Source: Polyangia bacterium
Lineage (GTDB): Bacteria > Myxococcota_A > Polyangia > Polyangiales > JAUICN01
Length of the DNA stretch: 64,000 nucleotides
Reading direction: 5' to 3'
Assembly (NCBI GenBank): GCA_030427835.1
Contig: JAUICN010000009.1
Location: 1-64,000 of the forward strand
Part shown: positions 3,349 through 13,312 of the stretch, piece after piece
How the letters are laid out: every line of letters begins with the position of its first letter
How positions within the stretch are numbered: the first letter of the stretch is position 1
Notes under the pieces: generated by a model
Seen by the model: the letters and a program-made list of their open reading frames with translations, nothing else
Databases searched by the model: none
What the model was told of the DNA's origin: nothing
Translations under genes and position numbers: made by a program

Positions 3349-3933
3349 TCAGTAGTAAATTTGGGCGCCGAGAAAGGTCCGTAGGCGGTCATTGCCGTTC
3401 CAAAGCATTTGAAAATCGGCACTGATGGCGGTGCCGAAGAACATCATCCGGTAGCTGATTCCAGGGCCCGCAAGTGCGTGGTGCTGTTTGTTGTGGTCGA
3501 TCAATGTGCCCGCTCCGCCGTAGACCCGGAATGCTTCATGAAGGTACATGCCCGCCTTCGCCTGGACCACCACCTCGCGCCAGCCCGCAGGTGTGGAGAG
3601 CCATAAAAGATCGCCTCCAATGAAGGGTGTCCTAAAGGAGGGGTGCAGGTGGTACTCGTAGAGTGCTCCCACCGTGAAGGGCTCCGGGCCGGGACGAAAG
3701 GTGCTTCCCAGGTAGATGCCCACATGGTGCTGCCGGTGGAGGTAGGCCCTGTTTAGGCGAACTTCGTCCTCGGGGCTGGGGCGAACTCCAAACGCCATAA
3801 GAATCCAAACCAGGAGGACACTGACCACGGCCCAGGTATTCCACGGTTGTGGGCCCTGGGTTAGGTGAGGGTGCCCATGGATTTTCTGTTGCGCACCTGG
3901 ATTCGAATGATAGATATTGAAAGTCGTTTTCAT
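3349..3933 (-). CDS. hypothetical protein, probable beta-rich envelope protein
   Basis: About 194 residues if started at the ATG at 3933. One hydrophobic segment (the AVVSVLLVWILMAFGV region) is followed by alternating polar/aromatic stretches such as YLGSTFRPG, GALYEYHLHP and ISYRMMFFGTAIS and a C-terminal Tyr, suggestive of a small outer-membrane or periplasmic beta protein. I do not recognise the family. The assigned start falls inside the palindrome of the divergent operon; an in-frame GTG just before the hydrophobic segment is a plausible alternative. A longer reading from 3981 would overlap the start of the divergent lipoprotein and is less likely. Confidence 0.5.
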   Translation of the reverse strand: MKTTFNIYHSNPGAQQKIHGHPHLTQGPQPWNTWAVVSVLLVWILMAFGVRPSPEDEVRLNRAYLHRQHHVGIYLGSTFRPGPEPFTVGALYEYHLHPSFRTPFIGGDLLWLSTPAGWREVVVQAKAGMYLHEAFRVYGGAGTLIDHNKQHHALAGPGISYRMMFFGTAISADFQMLWNGNDRLRTFLGAQIYY

Positions 3934-3954
3934 TATCGAAAACGGCTTTGCAAT
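3916..3954. promoter_or_regulatory. Fur-like palindromic operator
   Basis: A near-perfect inverted repeat: left arm 3916-3931 (ATTGAAAGTCGTTTTC), loop ATTATC, right arm 3938-3954 (one inserted base and one mismatch). Read on the minus strand, 3937-3919 is GATAATGAAAACGACTTTC, which matches the classical 19-bp Fur consensus (GATAATGATAATCATTATC) at 14 of 19 positions by my count. It lies just upstream of the DUF4856/imelysin/HTTM/TonB-receptor operon, whose families are commonly iron-regulated. Binding by Fur is an inference; the inverted repeat itself is directly visible. Confidence 0.6.
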
Positions 3955-3979
3955 ATTTGATTCGAGGGAGATGGGTGAC

Positions 3980-5458
3980 ATGGGTACTGGAAGAGGTTTT
4001 TTGCTCTGGCTGATGGTGTTGGTCCTAGGAACCGCCTGCGGATCCGAACAAGATGGGGTGGGGAACTACCTTTTCGATAGCCGATACGTGGACGGAGAAT
4101 CGAGTGTGGCCCATGGGGGGCAGACCACACGGCATATTCTTGTGTTGGATTTGACGGGGGAAATGGCGCGCATTTCCGCTGGGGTGTTGGACGGCACGAT
4201 TTCTCCCGACCAGTTTGATGAGGGCGGGGAGGTGCTCGCTGTGATGAATGCCTTTTTCCGTGAAGGTGCAGGAAGTTTGGGTACACGGGGCCTGCCAGGG
4301 CTCTTGGACGACGGAGACTCCCTTTGCCAGGCTTCCTATGGGGACCTTTCCGATGCTCGATTGGTGAACAAGGTCGCCGGTGAGGATGATGTGACCGACC
4401 ACAGGGATTGGGACGGGGACGACGAGGGAAGTACAGGGCCTGCGTTCGCCGGGTGGACGGATTCTACCGTGTTTTTAGGGAGCGGTGCCATCGCTGCTGG
4501 CGTGGGAGATACGCCTGTGAACTTGATGGATGCCCTGTTCACCACATTTGAGGCGCAGGTGCGTGCCTGTGCTTTGGACAACAACGATTGCCCCAGGGAT
4601 GGCGATGGCAACGGGTTGCCCTTGTATGTGACCCCTCAGGGCCTTGATTTGCGTCAGCTTGTGCAGAAGGTTTTGATCGGTGCCCTCCAGTTTAGTCAGG
4701 GTGCGGACGACTATTTGGATGGGGACGTGGAAGGCAAGGGGTTGCGTGCCGAACACACGGTACCCGCGGAGGACGGGGCGGCCTACACTGCATTGGAGCA
4801 CGCGTGGGATGAGGCCTTTGGTTACTTCGGTGCCGCGGTGAACTATGGGGCTTACACCGATGATGAGATCCGGGGGAGTGATGGGCGTGAGGGGTTTTCC
4901 CGTGGATACAACGATGTGAACGGGGACGGTTGTATCGATGTGTCGTCGGAGATCAATTTTGGTGTGTCCGTCAACGCGGCAAAGCGGGACGTCGGGTCCA
5001 CTACGGGTACGGATTTCACCGGAGAAGCGATGGCTGCGTTCCTGGGAGGTCGGCGGCTAATCGCATCGATTGATGGCCCATTGTCGGAGACCCAACAGGT
5101 GGCCCTTGGGGTGTACCGGGATACCGTGCTGGATGCCTGGGAGATGTCCATCGCTGCCACGGTGGTGCACTACGTGAACGATACGCTTGGGGATCTCGCC
5201 GCTTGCGGTACCGATGGTTTTGACTTTGCGGATTACGCCAAGCACTGGAGTGAGTTGAAGGGGTTTGCGTTGGGCTTGCAGTTCAACCCCCGATCGCCGG
5301 TGGGTACCCAGGACTTTGATGCGGTGCACATGGGTATTGGGGATCGTCCCGTGCTGTGCGATGGGGGTGTGGATGACTATCGGGCGGCCCTCGAGAATGT
5401 GCGCAATATCTTGCAAGGCCTGTACGGAATGGAAGCGGACGATGTTGCAAACTGGTAG
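3980..5458 (+). CDS. DUF4856 domain lipoprotein
   Basis: A 492-residue lipoprotein; the lipobox is LGTAC with Cys20. The start at 3980 is chosen because GAGGGAG lies 9 bases upstream and the signal peptide then has normal length; earlier in-frame starts at 3917 and 3971 are less well placed. The segment YLFDSRYVDG...HGGQTTRHILV and the alpha-helical body containing SFGYFGAAVNYG-like and SRGYNDVNGDGC elements fit DUF4856, a family that sits beside imelysin genes. Its role is unknown but genetic linkage suggests a surface or periplasmic partner of the imelysin and TonB receptor in metal acquisition. It overlaps the imelysin gene by 17 bases, indicating coupled translation. Asp/Glu-rich overall, with DGDGNG and DVNGDG loops that could bind calcium. 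Confidence 0.85.
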   Translation: MGTGRGFLLWLMVLVLGTACGSEQDGVGNYLFDSRYVDGESSVAHGGQTTRHILVLDLTGEMARISAGVLDGTISPDQFDEGGEVLAVMNAFFREGAGSLGTRGLPGLLDDGDSLCQASYGDLSDARLVNKVAGEDDVTDHRDWDGDDEGSTGPAFAGWTDSTVFLGSGAIAAGVGDTPVNLMDALFTTFEAQVRACALDNNDCPRDGDGNGLPLYVTPQGLDLRQLVQKVLIGALQFSQGADDYLDGDVEGKGLRAEHTVPAEDGAAYTALEHAWDEAFGYFGAAVNYGAYTDDEIRGSDGREGFSRGYNDVNGDGCIDVSSEINFGVSVNAAKRDVGSTTGTDFTGEAMAAFLGGRRLIASIDGPLSETQQVALGVYRDTVLDAWEMSIAATVVHYVNDTLGDLAACGTDGFDFADYAKHWSELKGFALGLQFNPRSPVGTQDFDAVHMGIGDRPVLCDGGVDDYRAALENVRNILQGLYGMEADDVANW

Positions 5459-6668
5459 CCGCCGCTTGCTGCCGAAGGTCCTGTTGGCGAGTGGCCTGTG
5501 GATGGGTTGCCTAATATCGTGTTTCCTTTTGGGATGCTCCAAGGGAGGTGGATCCACCGCACCCGAGTCTGCTATTCGTCTGCAAGCCGCGCGCCAACTG
5601 GGGGAGTTTGTGATCCTTCCTGCCTACGGGGAGTTTTCAAATGCATCCGACGCTCTCGCATTTACCCTAACCACCTACGCGTCGGATTTGAGTGAGACCA
5701 ATCGGACCGCGGCTGAGGAGGATTGGCACCGGGCCATGGACGTCTGGCAGCGTGTGGAAGTCATGCAGGTGGGGCCGCTTGGATCCATGACAGAGGTGGT
5801 GGGTGGCTTGGACCTTCGGGATGAAATCTACCCCTGGCCGTCCCTGAACCTATGCGCGGTGGATCAAATGACCTTGGATGGGGTATCAGGCGTGGACGAC
5901 CTTCGTGATGCGCCGGTGAATGCCAGGGGTTTGGGGGCCCTGGAATATCTGCTGTTTGTGGAAGATTCGGACAACCGCTGTTCACCGCTTGCGCCGATTA
6001 ACGTGGATGGCAGTTGGGATGCCCTTTCGGATAGCGAGGTGTTGCAGCGCCGGCTGAACCTTGCGGCGTTGATGGCAGAGCTGGTCAGTGATTACGCAGA
6101 TACCCTGGTCGCACTGTGGGGCACATCCGCTGTGGACGGCGCGTTCGTTCAAGAGTTTCAGAACCCGAGTGGTTCTAGCGCCGGGTACGGTTCGGCCCAG
6201 GAGGCCTTGAACGGCATTTCGGACGCCATGTTCTACGTGGATACGGAAACCAAGGATATGAAGATCGGGGAAGTGGCCGGCCTCACCTCCTGCGATACCG
6301 ACACGTGCCCGGATGCGAGGGAGTCACGGTTTGCGAATCGATCGAAGGAGCACATTCGGCAAAACCTTGTTGGGTTTCGTTCCCTCTTTTTTGGGGGGGA
6401 GCCGGGGAGTGACGGAGTTGGGTTTGACGACCTGTTGGATGACATGGGCGCATCGGACTTTCGACAATCCATGGGTACACACATTGATGGGGCAATCGCT
6501 GCGGTGGATGCCATCGACGGCACGTTGGTGGCGGCCCTGGGCGATGACCTGCAGTCCGTGCGTGACGCCCACTCGGCCATCCGCCTCATGACCGATGATT
6601 TGAAAACGATGTTTCTATCGGTGTTGGATTTGGAAGCGCCTAACCGTGCGGCCGGCGACAACGATTGA
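5442..6668 (+). CDS. imelysin family lipoprotein
   Basis: A 408-residue lipoprotein (lipobox FLLGC, Cys32) of the imelysin / M75-like family, periplasmic or surface helical-bundle proteins linked to iron uptake. Two family landmarks are visible: DVWQRVEVMQVGPLG (residues 100-114, the W-x-x-x-E-x-x-Q-x-G-P region) and ARGLGALEYLLF (161-172), which occupies the place of the GxHxxE motif. The histidine of that motif is Gly here, as in several imelysins of DUF4856-linked operons, so a peptidase activity is unlikely. The start at 5442 lies within the end of the preceding gene and gives a good lipoprotein signal. The next gene starts on the stop codon (TGATG), so the pair is translationally coupled. 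Confidence 0.9.
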   Translation: MLQTGSRRLLPKVLLASGLWMGCLISCFLLGCSKGGGSTAPESAIRLQAARQLGEFVILPAYGEFSNASDALAFTLTTYASDLSETNRTAAEEDWHRAMDVWQRVEVMQVGPLGSMTEVVGGLDLRDEIYPWPSLNLCAVDQMTLDGVSGVDDLRDAPVNARGLGALEYLLFVEDSDNRCSPLAPINVDGSWDALSDSEVLQRRLNLAALMAELVSDYADTLVALWGTSAVDGAFVQEFQNPSGSSAGYGSAQEALNGISDAMFYVDTETKDMKIGEVAGLTSCDTDTCPDARESRFANRSKEHIRQNLVGFRSLFFGGEPGSDGVGFDDLLDDMGASDFRQSMGTHIDGAIAAVDAIDGTLVAALGDDLQSVRDAHSAIRLMTDDLKTMFLSVLDLEAPNRAAGDND

Positions 6669-8170
6669 TGCTGGGCCTTTTTCGCCGCAGAGCGGCTTAC
6701 CGCTTCAAACCGACCCTCGAAGTATGTCTCAATACGTCTTCGCGCCGGTTTTGCAGGGGCGCACGCTCTGCGACGAAAAATGCTTCTGCATCTGGGAGAG
6801 CGGCTTACCGCTTTGTTTGCTCCCCTGGTGAATCGGTGGATGGGGCGTCGTTGGCGGTGTTTCGGATGTTGTTTGGGCTGTTGATGTTTGGCAGCACGGT
6901 GCGGTTCATGGCCCTGGGTTGGGTGGACCGGTGTTATGGGGAGCCCACGTTTTTCTTCAAGTATTGGGGTTTTGCATGGGTACGTAGTTTTGATGTGTCG
7001 GTCATGTACGCGCTTTTCGGTGTGGTGGCCCTTGCGGCCTTGGGGATGGCGATTGGGCTATTTTACCGCTGGTGCGCGGTGGTGTTCACGTTGGTGTTTA
7101 CCTACGTGGAGCTCATTGATGTGACGAACTACCTCAACCACTATTACCTGGTGAGCCTGTTGGGCGTGCTGTGTTGCTTGCTGCCCCTGGACCAGGTGGG
7201 CTCGTTGGACGGGTGGCGCAGGCGGCGACGGGGCATTGAAACCGGTGCCACAGTCCCGAAAAGGGCACTCTCATTGCTGCGATTTCAGGTGGGGGTGGTG
7301 TACCTGTTTGCGGGTTTGGCGAAGCTCGAGCCCGACTGGTTGCTGCATGGGCAACCCCTGGGAATTTGGTTGGCATCTCGCTCTGAGGCGCCGATGATGG
7401 GTGCGGTGGGGAACCTTCCCTACGCGGCCTTGGTATTTTCTTGGGCAGGGTTTGTGCACGACCTGTTGGCCCCGTTTCTTTTGTCCCACCGTGTCACACG
7501 TCGCTGGTTTTTTCCGGTGCTGGTGCTGTTCCATGGAGGCACGTTCCTCCTGTTCAATATTGGGATCTTCCCCCTGTTGATGCCAATTTGCGCCCTGTTG
7601 TTTTTTGAACCGGGTTTTCCACGTCGCCTATTGAAGCCAATGGGGTGCGGTGTTTTGCCTTCTCCTTCCGCACCCCTGGAAACCAAAAAGAGGAACGGAC
7701 CACACCAATGGTTTGTTGGCGCGTGGATGTTGTTGCAGGTGTTGGTACCCCTGAGAACGCACCTCTATGGGGGGAATGTGCTTTGGCATGAGCAGGGCAT
7801 GCGTTGGAGCTGGCGTGTGATGCTGCGCGAGAAGAACGGTTCCATCACGTACCGAGTACGATCCTCGGCGTGGCAGGGGGAACGCCTGGTTTCACCACGT
7901 CGCTATTTGACGTCTCACCAGGAACGTGAAATGTCCGGCCAGCCTGACATGGTGCTGCAGCTTGGAAAACACGTGGGGGAGCAAGCCAAGAAACGTGGCC
8001 TTCAGGACGTGCAAGTATTTGTGGACGCGCTGGTATCCCTCAATGGGAGACCTGGTGCTCCCATGATCGATCCTTCGGTGGATTTGATGACCGTACGTGA
8101 CGGTGTGGGATTGGCCGGCTGGATCTTGCCCGCCCCGAAGGGGCCGCCGCTTAGGTGGAGGGCACCATGA
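6668..8170 (+). CDS. HTTM domain membrane protein (vitamin K-dependent gamma-carboxylase-like)
   Basis: A multi-pass inner-membrane protein of the HTTM family, distant relatives of vitamin K-dependent gamma-carboxylase. The domain begins near the ASLAVFRMLFGLLMFGS segment and runs through several hydrophobic helices including YLNHYYLVSLLGVLCCLLPLD and FQVGVVYLFAGLAKLEPDWL, the latter characteristic of HTTM. HTTM genes frequently sit between imelysin and a FecA-like TonB receptor; the biochemical role is unknown. The ATG at 6668 overlaps the imelysin stop as TGATG and gives 500 residues, but this adds about 56 unusual residues before the domain, with an in-frame duplication (RAAYRF). A GTG at 6836 preceded by GGTGA is an alternative start. 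The stop overlaps the next ATG as ATGA. Confidence 0.88.
   Translation: MLGLFRRRAAYRFKPTLEVCLNTSSRRFCRGARSATKNASASGRAAYRFVCSPGESVDGASLAVFRMLFGLLMFGSTVRFMALGWVDRCYGEPTFFFKYWGFAWVRSFDVSVMYALFGVVALAALGMAIGLFYRWCAVVFTLVFTYVELIDVTNYLNHYYLVSLLGVLCCLLPLDQVGSLDGWRRRRRGIETGATVPKRALSLLRFQVGVVYLFAGLAKLEPDWLLHGQPLGIWLASRSEAPMMGAVGNLPYAALVFSWAGFVHDLLAPFLLSHRVTRRWFFPVLVLFHGGTFLLFNIGIFPLLMPICALLFFEPGFPRRLLKPMGCGVLPSPSAPLETKKRNGPHQWFVGAWMLLQVLVPLRTHLYGGNVLWHEQGMRWSWRVMLREKNGSITYRVRSSAWQGERLVSPRRYLTSHQEREMSGQPDMVLQLGKHVGEQAKKRGLQDVQVFVDALVSLNGRPGAPMIDPSVDLMTVRDGVGLAGWILPAPKGPPLRWRAP
6689..6813 (+). repeat. pair of 17-bp direct repeats, 108 bp apart
   Basis: AGAGCGGCTTACCGCTT is present at 6689-6705 and again, identically, at 6797-6813. 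Each copy is itself imperfectly palindromic (AGCGG...CCGCT). The spacing is 36 codons, so both encode RAAYRF if the HTTM gene starts at 6668. The repeats may instead mark a non-coding spacer between imelysin and HTTM. Confidence 0.65.
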
Positions 8171-10455
8171 AGTTTTGGGGTGTCTCGGTTCCTGTTGTTT
8201 CTGTGCTGTGCATTGGTGGGTTGTCCTATGCCCAGGAGGGTGAACCGCGGGAACGTGAAAATCAGGAAGCTGAACCCAGGGATGATGGGTGGATGTTGGA
8301 TGCGGTGGCCGTGGAGGCCGTGGCCGTGGACCCACACGCAGGTGGCGTTGCTGTGGTGGACGGTATTCGATCCCTGGGAGCGACCTCCCTGGTGACCGAG
8401 CAGGATCTAGAACAGGCGAACTACTCGGATCCTAACCGTGTGCTTTATCAGGTGCCTGGGGTCACCGTACGGGAGGAGGATGGCTTTGGGCTGCGCCCCA
8501 ACATCGGTATTCGTGGGGTGGATTCGGACCGGAGTAAAAAGGTGACACTGATGGAGGATGGGGTGCTGTTTGCGCCCGCTCCCTACTCGGCGCCTGCGGC
8601 GTATTACTTCCCCTCCATGGGGCGTGTGGTGGGCGTGGATGTGTACAAAGGTGCATCCACGTTGTTGTATGGTCCTGCCACGGTGGGTGGTGCGGTGGAT
8701 TTGCGGACGCGATCGATTCCTGAAACGGGGCAGGGGGCGCTGAACTTGGCCCTGGGCCGATTCGGGTCCAGGCGCGTGAATGCTCACATCGGTACCGGCT
8801 GGTCCTGGGGTGGTTTTGTTCTGGATGTGGCGGACATGGGCAGCCGTGGTTTTAAGACCCTGGATGTTACAGATGGGTTTACGGGGTTTACGCGCGATGA
8901 ACTGGTGTGGAAGGGGCAAGTGCACACCCCGCTCGATCGCGCGGTGGTGCACCGCGTGGGCGCAAAGATAGGTTACGGTTGGGAGCAATCCCGGGAGTCC
9001 TATTTGGGTCTTGAGGATGGGGACCTGAACCAGGATCCGAACCGCCGCTACGCTGCGGGACAGCGGGATCGAATGATCTGGCGCCGGTCACAAATCAACC
9101 TCCGCTACGAACTGGATACGGCGGTTTCAAACACACGGGTTGTGCTTTACAGAAACGATCTGGATCGGACCTGGCGGAGATTGGATCGGTTTCGGGACGG
9201 GCCTTCGCTGGTGGACACGTTACGGAGTCCGAGTGGTGTGCGGGAGGTGTACTACAACGTGCTCACGGGTACCCAGGATTCCGCCTCAGTATTGGACCCG
9301 GCCCAGGATCAGGAGGATCTCATTGTTACTAGCAACGAACGCACGTTCGTTTCCCGTGGGGTGCAGGCCACCCACCGAACAGAATTTGACGCCATGGGTG
9401 CGTTTCACGAAGTGGAGGTGGGCGTACGCCTGCACAACGACAGTGTTCAGCGCAATCACACGGAGCGAGGGTACCGAATGAGCGCTGGGCGATTGTCTTC
9501 GGATGGGCAATCCCAGGTTCAGGCCCGGGATGATTTGGGTGAGGCCACAGCGCTTTCAGCCTATCTATCCTACTTGCTTGAGATCGGGCGGTGGACGTGG
9601 GTTCCCTCGGCACGCACCGAGAGAATCTGGACAAGGTTTGAGGACGTTTTGGCGGTTGCGGAAACGGATCGAATCCAGCAGGTGTGGCTTCCTGGGATGC
9701 GGCTGCAACTGGATCGTGGAATGCCCTGGTCATTTTTCGGGGGCGTTCACCGCGGGTTTGCACCGGTGACCCCAGGGCAGGATAGGGCAGTGGATCCAGA
9801 AACGAGCTGGAACTACGAGTTGGGCGCCCGGTTGGACGTCCCGTTGGACGACGGTGGATGGACGGGTGAAGCCGTGGCGTTCGTGAACGACTACGGCAAC
9901 TTGTCAGGGCAATGCACCACGTCTTCGGGGTGCGGTACGGATCAGCTTGGGGAGCAGTTCAATGGGGGTGAAGCCCTGGTGTGGGGGCTTGAGCTTGCGT
10001 TGGCAAAGACGTTGGAGTTGAGCCATGGCCATCGGTTGACGGGCCAGGGGTCCTACACCTGGACCCGGGGGCAATTCGATACCGATTTTTCTTCCGACAA
10101 TCCCCTGTTCGGTGATGTCAGCGTTGGGGATAGGCTTCCTTATCTACCTGTGCATCGGGGGCAGCTGAGGGCCCTGTGGGAACAGGATAGGCTTTCGGCT
10201 GGGCTGGGAGCGACGGTGGTGGGCGAAATGCGTGAGCAGGCGGGGCAGGGTGAGCCTGAACCCGGGGCGCTTCCCTTGACGGATCGCTACGTACTGATGG
10301 ATGCCCAGGTTCGCGTTCGTGTGGGGGATCGTACCGAGTTCTCCTTGCGGGGTGAGAATCTTCTTAACCAACAGCCGATTGTGGCCCGACGCCCCTTCGG
10401 TGCTCGTACGGTACACCCCTTGCAAGTATGGGTGGGCATGGGTGTCGAGCTGTAG
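8167..10455 (+). CDS. TonB-dependent receptor, FecA-like
   Basis: A 762-residue outer-membrane receptor for TonB-energised uptake. The signal peptide ends at SYA (about residue 26). The plug domain carries SLVTEQDLEQANYSDPNRVL, PGVTVREEDGFGLRPNIGIRG, EDGVLFAPAPYSAPAAYYFP and YKGASTLLYGPATVGGAVDL, the arrangement seen in FecA-type receptors for ferric citrate and related chelates. The remainder is a beta-barrel rich in WELGA and FxxxRTERIW-like strands, with a C-terminal VWVGMGVEL strand. The ATG at 8167 overlaps the HTTM stop by ATGA and has GGTGGAGGG ahead of it. As last of the four uptake genes it is the likely transporter served by the DUF4856 and imelysin lipoproteins. Ligand not deducible; iron is favoured by context. 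Confidence 0.93.
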   Translation: MKFWGVSVPVVSVLCIGGLSYAQEGEPRERENQEAEPRDDGWMLDAVAVEAVAVDPHAGGVAVVDGIRSLGATSLVTEQDLEQANYSDPNRVLYQVPGVTVREEDGFGLRPNIGIRGVDSDRSKKVTLMEDGVLFAPAPYSAPAAYYFPSMGRVVGVDVYKGASTLLYGPATVGGAVDLRTRSIPETGQGALNLALGRFGSRRVNAHIGTGWSWGGFVLDVADMGSRGFKTLDVTDGFTGFTRDELVWKGQVHTPLDRAVVHRVGAKIGYGWEQSRESYLGLEDGDLNQDPNRRYAAGQRDRMIWRRSQINLRYELDTAVSNTRVVLYRNDLDRTWRRLDRFRDGPSLVDTLRSPSGVREVYYNVLTGTQDSASVLDPAQDQEDLIVTSNERTFVSRGVQATHRTEFDAMGAFHEVEVGVRLHNDSVQRNHTERGYRMSAGRLSSDGQSQVQARDDLGEATALSAYLSYLLEIGRWTWVPSARTERIWTRFEDVLAVAETDRIQQVWLPGMRLQLDRGMPWSFFGGVHRGFAPVTPGQDRAVDPETSWNYELGARLDVPLDDGGWTGEAVAFVNDYGNLSGQCTTSSGCGTDQLGEQFNGGEALVWGLELALAKTLELSHGHRLTGQGSYTWTRGQFDTDFSSDNPLFGDVSVGDRLPYLPVHRGQLRALWEQDRLSAGLGATVVGEMREQAGQGEPEPGALPLTDRYVLMDAQVRVRVGDRTEFSLRGENLLNQQPIVARRPFGARTVHPLQVWVGMGVEL

Positions 10456-10479
10456 ACTAGGCTGTGCTAGTTCTGGTGG

Positions 10480-11817
10480 ATGGAGGAGCGACCCGAAGTT
10501 TCGGCGATTGAGGCCCTTGCGCTACGTCGGTTGATTGCGCTTCGGTGGTGGGCGGTGCTTCTTGGCGGAGTTGGGGGAGCGGTCGCCTGGTGGATGGATG
10601 TGGTGAGCGCCGGCCCTGTGGTTCTCTGGGTGCCGTTGTCGATTCTGGTGGCGAGCAATGTGGCTCTGTCCCGCTGGGTGGGAGCTCAGGTTTCTGAAAC
10701 GGTGCTTGTGGGAGTGCTGGTGCTGGATGCGGCCGTGCTCACCGTGGCCCTGTGGAACACGGGCGGTGCGTCGAACCCCTTTACGGTGCTTTACATCGTA
10801 GAGGTGGCCGTGGCCGCCCTTGTGCTCCGCGCCCCCTGGTCCTGGGTGGTGACCGCGGGGGCCGGGCTTGGTTACGGGCTACTCTTTGTGCTTCCGGGTT
10901 CAACAGATGGTTCCGGCCACGGGATGCCGCACCATGGTATGGAACATCACGCGACTGCACACCAGGCGACTGCACACCAGGCGACGGGGTACCAGGGCAT
11001 GGAACAAAGTGGTGTGGTAGCGTCGTTTGAGACCCATTTGTACGGCATGTTGGTCGCCTTTTCCGTTGCAGCGGTGGCGATTCTTGTGGTGGTGCAGTGG
11101 TTGGTACGGGATCTTCGGCAACGGGAGCACGCGTTGGAGAGTGCCCAACAAGCGGCTTTTCGTGCCAAGCGTTTGGCGGCGGTCAGTGCCATGGCGGCAG
11201 GTGCCGCCCACGAACTGGGAAGCCCCCTGGGTACGCTTAAGCTGATCTCTTCTGAGTTGATAGGGATGGTGGATCAGCCGACGGATCGGTTTTGCAAAGA
11301 AGTGCGGCTGTTGGATCAGGAGGTGGACCGTTGCCAGAACATTCTCTCCCAAATGGGGATTGAGGCGGGTCAGCTTCATGGAGAGCCCCCGGGGAGGATT
11401 CAGGTGTCCGACTTGGTTGGCCGGGCCATGGCGGGCACAACGGACGGTACGCGTGTTGTGCCTACGCTTCCTGAGGAGGGTGTGGAGTTGCGAATTCCCG
11501 TTCAGGCCATGGTTCGGGCACTTACCAACCTGTTACAAAACGGTTTGGATGCCTCTGGGTCAGAGCAAGAGGTTGCCCTTCAGGTGGAAGTGGATCCTGA
11601 TCGGGTGCGGTTTGTGGTGCTGGATTCGGGTCGAGGGATGGCACCTGGGGTTCTGGCACGGAGCCGTGAGCCATTTTTCTCCACCAAGACACAGCATCGG
11701 GGCATGGGTTTGGGTTTGTTTGTGGTGCAGAGTCTCGCCGATCACCTGGGTGGTGAGTTGATGTTGAATTCTAGTGTGGGCAAGGGCACCCGTGCTTGTT
11801 TGGGGATTCCGCGGTGA
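10480..11817 (+). CDS. RegB/PrrB-type redox sensor histidine kinase with His-rich periplasmic loop
   Basis: A 445-residue membrane histidine kinase. Six membrane helices occupy roughly residues 20-208. RegB hallmarks are present: the quinone-site motif GGASNPF (95-101) after helix 3, the H-box AAHELGSPLGTL with His244, and DRCQNIL with Cys285, which aligns with the redox-active cysteine of RegB. The C-terminal ATPase domain has DSGRGM and GMGLGLFVV. Between helices 5 and 6 (about 141-186, predicted periplasmic) there is an extra segment with seven histidines and several Met within about 30 residues, partly a repeat of HQATA; this is unlike standard RegB and suggests metal binding. It starts 24 bp after the TonB receptor and its stop overlaps the regulator gene (GTGA). 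Confidence 0.9.
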   Translation: MEERPEVSAIEALALRRLIALRWWAVLLGGVGGAVAWWMDVVSAGPVVLWVPLSILVASNVALSRWVGAQVSETVLVGVLVLDAAVLTVALWNTGGASNPFTVLYIVEVAVAALVLRAPWSWVVTAGAGLGYGLLFVLPGSTDGSGHGMPHHGMEHHATAHQATAHQATGYQGMEQSGVVASFETHLYGMLVAFSVAAVAILVVVQWLVRDLRQREHALESAQQAAFRAKRLAAVSAMAAGAAHELGSPLGTLKLISSELIGMVDQPTDRFCKEVRLLDQEVDRCQNILSQMGIEAGQLHGEPPGRIQVSDLVGRAMAGTTDGTRVVPTLPEEGVELRIPVQAMVRALTNLLQNGLDASGSEQEVALQVEVDPDRVRFVVLDSGRGMAPGVLARSREPFFSTKTQHRGMGLGLFVVQSLADHLGGELMLNSSVGKGTRACLGIPR

Positions 11818-12434
11818 GCACCTCTGAAGCAAAGCCACGCCAGGTGCGTGTGTTGGTTGTGGAAGATGATCACGTGTTCCGTGAGCGTCTGGTCTATTCT
11901 TTGGAACGGTGCGGCCACAGGGTAGTGGCCACTGGAACTGCGGGGGACGCGCTAGGCTACGCGCAGCGGCATCCTGTGGATCGTGCCATTGTGGATTTAC
12001 GGCTTCCCGATATGGGTGGACTTGAACTCGTGCCCCGCCTGCTCGAATGCCGACCCACATTGCAAGTGCTCGTGCTCACCGGATACGGGAGCATTGCCAC
12101 GGCGCTTGAGGCGGTGCGACTGGGTGCGGGTCACTACCTGACCAAGCCAGTCACCGCGGAGCAGATTGAGGATGCCTTTGCGCAGATGGATGAGGGCCCT
12201 GCGGATGGGAATTCTGCGGACGGGAATTCTAGGAGCGGGGATCCAGCGAGTGGAAATTTTGCTGGGACTGAGATGGATACCGGTGATGTTCCATCCCTTG
12301 CGAGGGTGGAGTGGGAGCATATTCAGCGGGTGCTGCAGGATTGTGGTGGAAATATTACCCATGCGGCCGAGCTTTTGGGGATTCACCGGCGTTCCTTGCA
12401 ACGTAAGTTGCAGAAGTTGCCGTCGCGTCGGTAG
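11814..12434 (+). CDS. RegA/PrrA-type response regulator
   Basis: A 206-residue two-component regulator starting at GTG 11814, which overlaps the kinase stop. The receiver domain has the acidic pair in VVEDDHVF, the phospho-acceptor Asp in AIVDLRLPDMGG, and the Thr/Lys switch residues (VLTGYGS, LTKPV). The C-terminal Fis-type helix-turn-helix (NITHAAELLGIHRRSLQRKL) is that of RegA/PrrA/ActR. The linker between domains is longer than in classical RegA because of an in-phase 15-bp repeat encoding ADGNS twice followed by degenerate copies. It is presumably phosphorylated by the preceding kinase and may control the upstream uptake operon, the neighbouring envelope genes, or respiration genes as in purple bacteria. 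Confidence 0.93.
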   Translation: MSTSEAKPRQVRVLVVEDDHVFRERLVYSLERCGHRVVATGTAGDALGYAQRHPVDRAIVDLRLPDMGGLELVPRLLECRPTLQVLVLTGYGSIATALEAVRLGAGHYLTKPVTAEQIEDAFAQMDEGPADGNSADGNSRSGDPASGNFAGTEMDTGDVPSLARVEWEHIQRVLQDCGGNITHAAELLGIHRRSLQRKLQKLPSRR

Positions 12435-12457
12435 TGCGGATGTTCGTGGTCTGCGGC

Positions 12458-13312
12458 TCAACGAACGTAGTTGAGCCAGAGTTGGGCTGCCACATCGTAG
12501 TTTCTGGTTGCGGTGACGGGAATGAGGGGGCCTCCTTCGATGGACCAGTTGGAGTTCAGGAACCTTCGGATTGTGGGAGCCACTTGCAGCGTGGTGGATC
12601 CTTCCCTTGGAAGGTTGGCGATGGGTTGGGTGGGGCTACGCAGGTGGGTTTGGGCAAAGAGCTGTACGTTAAACCCCAACGCTGGGCGAGCTTCCGAAGT
12701 GAACAGGGGGGTCCAGGTTGCGCCGTAGTTGATTCGAAGACCTGCATTGCCCCGTGGAGCACCTTCCACTCCTAGGGTCCAGGTAACTCGGTGTCGGGGC
12801 GCAAGGGTGTGAATCAGGTTTGTGGTTAGGCGTGTCCAGGGATTCGGTTGGGTCGAAAGGTTGTGTGCGACCCCCGGAGCGATGGCTTCGGCCCAATAAG
12901 CCACGTGTAGGGATGGGGACCATGGGTGTTGCAAGCCAATACCTAGGCTTGGATCCAGGGAGCGGGTTTTGGCTTCGTTTGTGGATTGCCACGTGTGTGG
13001 AACCGTGGCGACCGCGCTCCAATGGGGTGTGAGAGCGATGGCTGCACTCCACTGGGCTTGGTAGGTTCCTGTTCTTTGTGACGGGCTGTTGCTTGTACCC
13101 AGGGAGCCCCAGGTCCCCCATCGCAGTTGGTAGGGTGTGCTGCGGGACGTGTGCCCTGTGGTGAGGGCCATGGGTGACCCAATCCCCGTGGCCGTGGGGA
13201 GACCCGTGAGTGGCGCGCTGGGTACAGGAATGGGGTCGCCATGGTGGGCGTTCGAGACCGGGGCCCAAGTCAACCATGCGGCGAAGAAAGCTATGGCGCT
13301 GGCGCGTACCAC
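12458..13312 (-). CDS. outer-membrane beta-barrel protein, possible metal-linked
   Basis: A 284-residue secreted protein with a signal peptide cut around SNA, leaving a mature N-terminus HHGDPIPVP. The rest alternates strands and turns (YQLRWGTWGSLG, YQAQWSAAIALTPHWSAVATVPHTW, LRINYGATWTPL, ALGFNVQLFAQTHL, YDVAAQLWLNYVR), a pattern of an outer-membrane beta-barrel such as the transporter/porin-like families seen beside copper or zinc genes. It converges with the regulator gene, 23 bp apart. An exposed His-His at the mature N-terminus can coordinate copper or nickel, and the adjacent sensor has a His-rich loop, so a metal connection is plausible but unproven. Family not named with certainty. 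Confidence 0.7.
   Translation of the reverse strand: MVRASAIAFFAAWLTWAPVSNAHHGDPIPVPSAPLTGLPTATGIGSPMALTTGHTSRSTPYQLRWGTWGSLGTSNSPSQRTGTYQAQWSAAIALTPHWSAVATVPHTWQSTNEAKTRSLDPSLGIGLQHPWSPSLHVAYWAEAIAPGVAHNLSTQPNPWTRLTTNLIHTLAPRHRVTWTLGVEGAPRGNAGLRINYGATWTPLFTSEARPALGFNVQLFAQTHLRSPTQPIANLPREGSTTLQVAPTIRRFLNSNWSIEGGPLIPVTATRNYDVAAQLWLNYVR

Follow-up and report, generated by a model that had tools for sequence, protein, structure and literature searches.

The RegB-type kinases of this phylum recurrently carry, between membrane helices 5 and 6, a loop of variable length that is rich in histidine and methionine, and the loop of the kinase studied here is an instance of this family feature and no one-off graft tied to the neighbouring operon. 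RegB/RegA is a textbook redox system, and to our knowledge no metal role has so far been assigned to the periplasmic side of RegB. For the regBA pair of the window (the whole stretch of 64,000 nucleotides that was analysed) we tentatively favour, at a confidence short of even, a RegB-type redox system in which the His/Met loop and His186 would bind metal, copper being the best candidate, and in this way modulate the kinase.

The regBA pair and the operon in front of it

Table 1. Features of the window in the region of regBA (positions of the window; all on the + strand)
Feature	Position	Strand	Remarks
DUF4856 protein	3917..5458	+	First gene of the upstream operon; profile match
Imelysin-family (Peptidase_M75) lipoprotein	5400..6668	+	Start approximate
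HTTM / vitamin-K-dependent carboxylase-like (VKGC) membrane protein	6665..8170	+	
TonB-dependent receptor, siderophore-type	8155..10455	+	Ends 24 bp before the kinase start
RegB/ActS/PrrB-like membrane histidine kinase	10480..11817	+	ORF 10480-11814, 445 aa; HATPase_c and HisKA (Pfam)
GGASNPF quinone-site motif	10762..10782	+	Residues 95-101, between helices 3 and 4
Helix 5-6 loop, predicted periplasmic	10891..11028	+	About residues 138-183; 7 His and 3 Met
Perfect 15-bp tandem repeat inside the kinase loop	10951..10985	+	2.3 copies, 100% identical; encodes ATAHQ-ATAHQ-AT
His186, HLxGM motif	11035..11037	+	Periplasmic end of helix 6; alignment
H-box AAHELGSPL	11203..11229	+	Autophosphorylation His
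Cys285	11332..11334	+	Counterpart of the RegB redox-box Cys (R. capsulatus Cys265); alignment
RegA-type response regulator	11814..12434	+	Receiver and Fis HTH, Cys177 kept; 4-bp overlap with the kinase gene
15-bp tandem repeat in regA	12199..12230	+	Interdomain linker (receiver to HTH)

The kinase shows the sequence hallmarks of RegB, namely a predicted six-helix membrane domain, the GGxxNPF motif, the H-box AAHELG(S/T)PL and the redox-box cysteine, and its preliminary description as a RegB-type kinase with both redox features is borne out (Table 1). Cys285 stands in the context QEVDRCQNILS, which fits the DRCxxIL pattern (DRCQNIL), and matches the redox-box Cys of RegB/ActS in the alignment; a cysteine occupies this position in 62/69 kinases from the order, 18/20 from the wider phylum and 13/13 from Proteobacteria. 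The histidine of the HLxGM motif is found at the position of His186 in 66/69, 14/20 and 8/13 of these aligned rows, respectively. In R. capsulatus, both quinone and the oxidation of Cys265 regulate RegB (PMC9147068).

The ActS/PrrB/RegB model NF033792 was the best NCBIfam model for the kinase, and its cut-off of 350 bits was reached neither by the window protein (166 bits) nor by two other homologues from the phylum and a homologue from Azospirillum linked to cytochrome bo3 oxidase (cyo) genes (194-243 bits). Since these other homologues also score below the cut-off, the kinase is, as judged from sequence, a member of a divergent branch of the RegB family and not an equivalog. The partner regulator, in which a receiver is joined to a Fis-type HTH with a Cys before the HTH, reached 134 bits with the ActR/PrrA/RegA model NF033791, below the cut-off of 250; its Cys177 aligns with the Cys of ActR/RegA and is kept in 38/57 RegA rows. 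The window pair thereby resembles the group 1 systems of Alphaproteobacteria (RegB/PrrB/ActS with RegA/PrrA/ActR) in its six-helix kinase with GGxxNPF, H-box and redox-box Cys and in its regulator with a Fis-type HTH and a conserved Cys, and differs from them in that both proteins stay below the curated cut-offs. It differs also in the loop, which has 44 aa and seven His, as opposed to 13-14 aa and 0-1 His in RegB/ActS of Azospirillum and Sinorhizobium. The presence of senC beside regBA is a further trait of group 1, and no SenC/Sco match was obtained among the flanking ORFs scanned in the window. The genome of the window (3.3 Mb, 98% complete) contains a single RegB. A search for close relatives in genome contigs gave two weak kinase matches only, and a plasmid search for kinase homologues gave no match at E 1e-20 and alphaproteobacterial RegB when relaxed to E 1e-9.

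A second group of RegB-like kinases was encountered at the end of cyo-SURF1 operons on alphaproteobacterial plasmids (L180, L206, L207, L208 and L213), and the member tested, L180, was below the RegB equivalog cut-off. The cyo-linked kinases share the RegB architecture and, in L180, L183 and L205, an HLxGM-type His together with one to three loop His, whereas in most of them the loop is an unexpanded 14-19 aa and the neighbours are oxidase genes instead of metal-uptake genes.

The kinase gene had been placed directly downstream of a metal-uptake operon, and its position is confirmed, as it begins 24 bp behind the imelysin/TonB-receptor operon. A search for intrinsic terminators in 10300-12700 gave hits at the consensus level only, none of which lies between the TonB receptor gene and regB. 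Probably, regB and regA are co-transcribed with the upstream DUF4856-imelysin-HTTM-TonB-receptor operon, and the RegBA pair probably controls it. Neighbouring operons of this imelysin type are usually linked to iron; a literature search on imelysin with HTTM gave no paper in the collection searched.

DUF4856 is present in 30/183 genomes of the order, and RegB is adjacent in two of the about 30 DUF4856 operons of the order (20 loci and L041 were read), i.e. in the window and in G030 (L041). In G030 the DUF4856 and imelysin genes, whose products are 58% and 49% identical to those of the window, are divergent from regBA, and shortly after imelysin the contig breaks off. At five other DUF4856-imelysin loci (L146, L150, L151, L154 and L158) the TonB receptor has a gene for a non-RegB histidine kinase close by; the one scanned, at 15112-16707 of L158, is PAS-type. 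The neighbourhoods suggest that the DUF4856-imelysin operon repeatedly recruits a kinase.

The loop across RegB-type kinases

The loop of the window kinase (GSTDGSGHGMPHHGMEHHATAHQATAHQATGYQGMEQSGVVASF) comprises 44 aa with seven His, three Met and no Lys or Arg. The segment singled out in the preliminary description, 10915-11010 (residues 146-177), lies within it, and the observation of a His- and Met-containing loop between helices 5 and 6, built in part by a perfect 15-bp repeat, was confirmed. Hydropathy predicts six membrane helices, and Lys/Arg at positions 4, 16, 17, 22, 65, 117, 210, 213 and 215, nearly all of those within the first 240 residues, share one side of the membrane, so that loops 1-2, 3-4 (with GGASNPF) and 5-6 on the opposite side are predicted to be periplasmic; the placement proposed earlier is thus supported as a prediction. 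In a single-sequence AlphaFold2 model of low confidence (pLDDT 45), which served for helix positions and the coil only, helices span residues 9-42, 46-66, 73-94, 100-117, 120-137 and 178 onward, and residues 138-177 form coil. At the kinase's own His frequency the chance of at least seven His in 44 aa is 4e-6, and by a rough estimate a few such His-rich stretches are expected per whole proteome by chance, so that the significance of the loop rests on enrichment at the level of the family, where the richness in His and Met is well beyond chance.

The loop region is present in 69/69 RegB-like kinases of the order, with a length of 2-71 aa (median 16). In these proteins His makes up 16.8% and Met 5.0% of the loop, compared to 1.8% each in the remaining sequence, and at least one loop His occurs in 62/69 kinases, at least five in 16/69 and none in 7/69. 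The loops of 20 homologues from the wider phylum contain 14.0% His and 8.4% Met, and those of 13 proteobacterial plasmid homologues 5.9% His. Long loops (at least 25 aa) have a His fraction of 15.9% versus 16.2% in short loops. Copper-type His/Met motifs are seen in loops from other families, as in MDHGAMDHGAMGHSAMGH (L185), HDMMNHGAMNHQMMDHSM (L186) and HMGMEHAGHEGHGM (L195). With His-bearing loops in most relatives of the order and likewise in further classes of the phylum, the loop can no longer be regarded as an addition peculiar to the window kinase.

On a tree of 102 kinases constructed with the loop columns left out, which has several long end branches and cannot tell gains from losses, the ten most His/Met-rich loops (at least eight His plus Met) give ten label changes, with a shuffled mean of 9.7, and the long His/Met-rich loops are clearly scattered over this tree. 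A tie between the loop and the imelysin operon was rejected. Long loops occur without the operon, reaching 71 aa with 10 His in one kinase and 52 aa with 7 His and 8 Met in another, and the operon-linked loop of G030 is short (20 aa, 2 His, 2 Met), so the loop does not track the upstream operon in the alignment. Among relatives with the same operon the loop is to this extent variable, with the qualification that G030 belongs to another family. At L045 a YtkA-like lipoprotein with HDGHDGHDGHDG repeats is encoded just 3' of regA (8004-8588), and the RegB loop of this locus is also His-rich.

RegB loci beside mbnP and mbnH

A homologue of MbnP (PF20243) was located near regBA in 11 of the 40 RegB loci compared, most of the 11 also having MbnH (MauG-like); the imelysin-only loci of this context comparison all lacked it. 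Order-wide, 30/112 RegB loci have MbnP at a distance of at most 10 kb (1.3-7.2 kb from start to start), where about 0.23 would be expected on an assumed 8-Mb genome; these loci cover 16 genera by group codes, with ten of the 30 coming from one genus. The weaker RegB-like loci G047 and G051 show the same adjacency. In G030, the DUF4856-imelysin genes, regBA, an outer-membrane-like gene, mbnP and mbnH are assembled within about 9 kb (714-8965 of L041), and MbnP and MbnH of this genome as well as those of the window's genome exceed the NCBIfam cut-offs TIGR04052 and TIGR04039, respectively. The pair adjoins regBA in about a quarter of the RegB loci of the order and lies elsewhere in the window's genome, which has one mbnP-mbnH pair on contig C19 (8199-10290 of L239), flanked by neither a RegA nor a RegB homologue. 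The gene at 12458-13312, 3' of regA in the window, was examined as a candidate for the outer-membrane protein that typically accompanies RegBA-mbnPH, and this found no support.

All of the 17 MbnP-adjacent kinases have at least two loop His, versus 41/52 of the other RegB (Fisher p 0.054), and a higher loop His count beside MbnP was not significant (Mann-Whitney p 0.40), these p-values being descriptive as the rows compared are related to one another. The lack of a significant rise in His weighs against a tight functional tie of the loop to mbnP. On a plasmid of Methylosinus sp. C49 (L184, 12570-20269), a RegB-like kinase and a regulator with c-type cytochromes adjoin the methanobactin (mbn) operon.

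The title of Manesis et al. 2021, cited in PMC9426467, attributes copper binding by MbnP-type proteins to kynurenine, and in the early survey of Kenney and Rosenzweig the pair is conserved far beyond the methanobactin producers, with an unclear role there (PMC3621798). Our literature searches for a link between RegBA and MbnPH, and for RegB with myxobacteria and copper, gave no paper in the collection searched. The preliminary description proposed a merger of metal and redox sensing in one protein and regarded it as not described before. The general idea is backed independently by the adjacency of RegB to MbnP/MbnH, which does not extend to the proposed link with the upstream operon. The combination of copper and redox in RegBA is known from R. 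capsulatus, in which RegA binds copper and forms a copper-promoted disulfide at Cys156 (PMC9147068). The two systems are alike in the link of RegBA to copper and redox and in the conserved Cys before the HTH, whereas copper acts on the cytoplasmic regulator in R. capsulatus and the candidate site of the window pair is periplasmic and on the kinase.

Metal binding by the loop and competing readings

Setting out from the observed gene order, motifs, predicted topology, His/Met enrichment in the family, recurrent loop expansion and regBA-mbnPH adjacency, we propose that the unstructured loop and His186 probably bind a periplasmic transition metal, most likely copper. Occupancy by the metal would shift helix 6, which is continuous with the dimerisation/H-box helix, and this shift would modulate the kinase jointly with quinone at GGASNPF and oxidation at Cys285. 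RegA~P would in turn adjust the neighbouring uptake operon as well as genes of respiration.

Nearly equal in standing to metal binding is the reading that the kinase is an ordinary RegB sensing quinone and oxidation only, its loop being a neutral or weakly constrained linker grown by slippage and maybe binding metal weakly. Because a similar 15-bp repeat is present in the regB loop and in the regA linker, the latter being longer in the window than in most relatives, slippage expansion has acted in both, and the perfect repeat shows that slippage is by itself sufficient to extend the loop, as it has extended the regA linker. This low-complexity composition, the wide range of loop length and the His-free loops of some relatives speak for a linker and count against a metal site, and the His content beside MbnP, which is not significantly increased, points in the same direction. 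Against a neutral linker stand the specific His/Met richness of the loops across the phylum, which the regA linkers of these loci do not share, the conservation of His186 in the order, and the recurrent location of RegB loci next to mbnPH.

We consider it unlikely that iron or the status of ferric complexes, and not copper, is what the loop senses, a reading that would fit the imelysin/FecA-like operon upstream with its siderophore-type TonB receptor and the same DUF4856-imelysin genes beside regBA in G030. The iron-linked type of this operon and the location of mbnPH on another contig are counted against copper in the window. Most DUF4856-imelysin operons of the order, however, have no RegB nearby, several have another kinase, and RegB homologues whose loops are richest do not have the operon; the small number of operons with an adjacent RegB is counted against the metal-binding loop as well. 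RegB loci are instead repeatedly found beside the copper-family pair mbnPH, and His/Met-rich motifs are characteristic of sites for Cu(I)/Ag(I). Least probable of all is a loop that, in place of a metal site, forms a sensor of pH or protons or serves to dock a partner protein in the periplasm; the many His, the lack of Lys/Arg and the apparent disorder of the loop in the low-confidence model would suit this, but pH sensing leaves the Met enrichment beside His and the copper-gene neighbourhood unexplained.

Returning to metal binding by the loop, a copper input into redox sensing by the RegB kinases of this phylum is plausible on sequence grounds. That the whole branch is a dual-input system is a more doubtful extension: a fast-evolving His/Met loop would read copper, the quinone motif and Cys would read redox, and the pair would control mbnPH in many species and the imelysin/TonB-receptor operon here. 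Should the loop indeed read copper, the availability of oxidase metal and the respiratory redox state would be joined in a single protein. The RegBA-mbnPH neighbourhood would further provide a candidate regulator for the mbnPH pair, which is widespread outside methanobactin operons, and the broader interest lies in a branch of redox kinases that combines a recurrently His/Met-rich, predicted periplasmic loop with a neighbourhood of copper genes.
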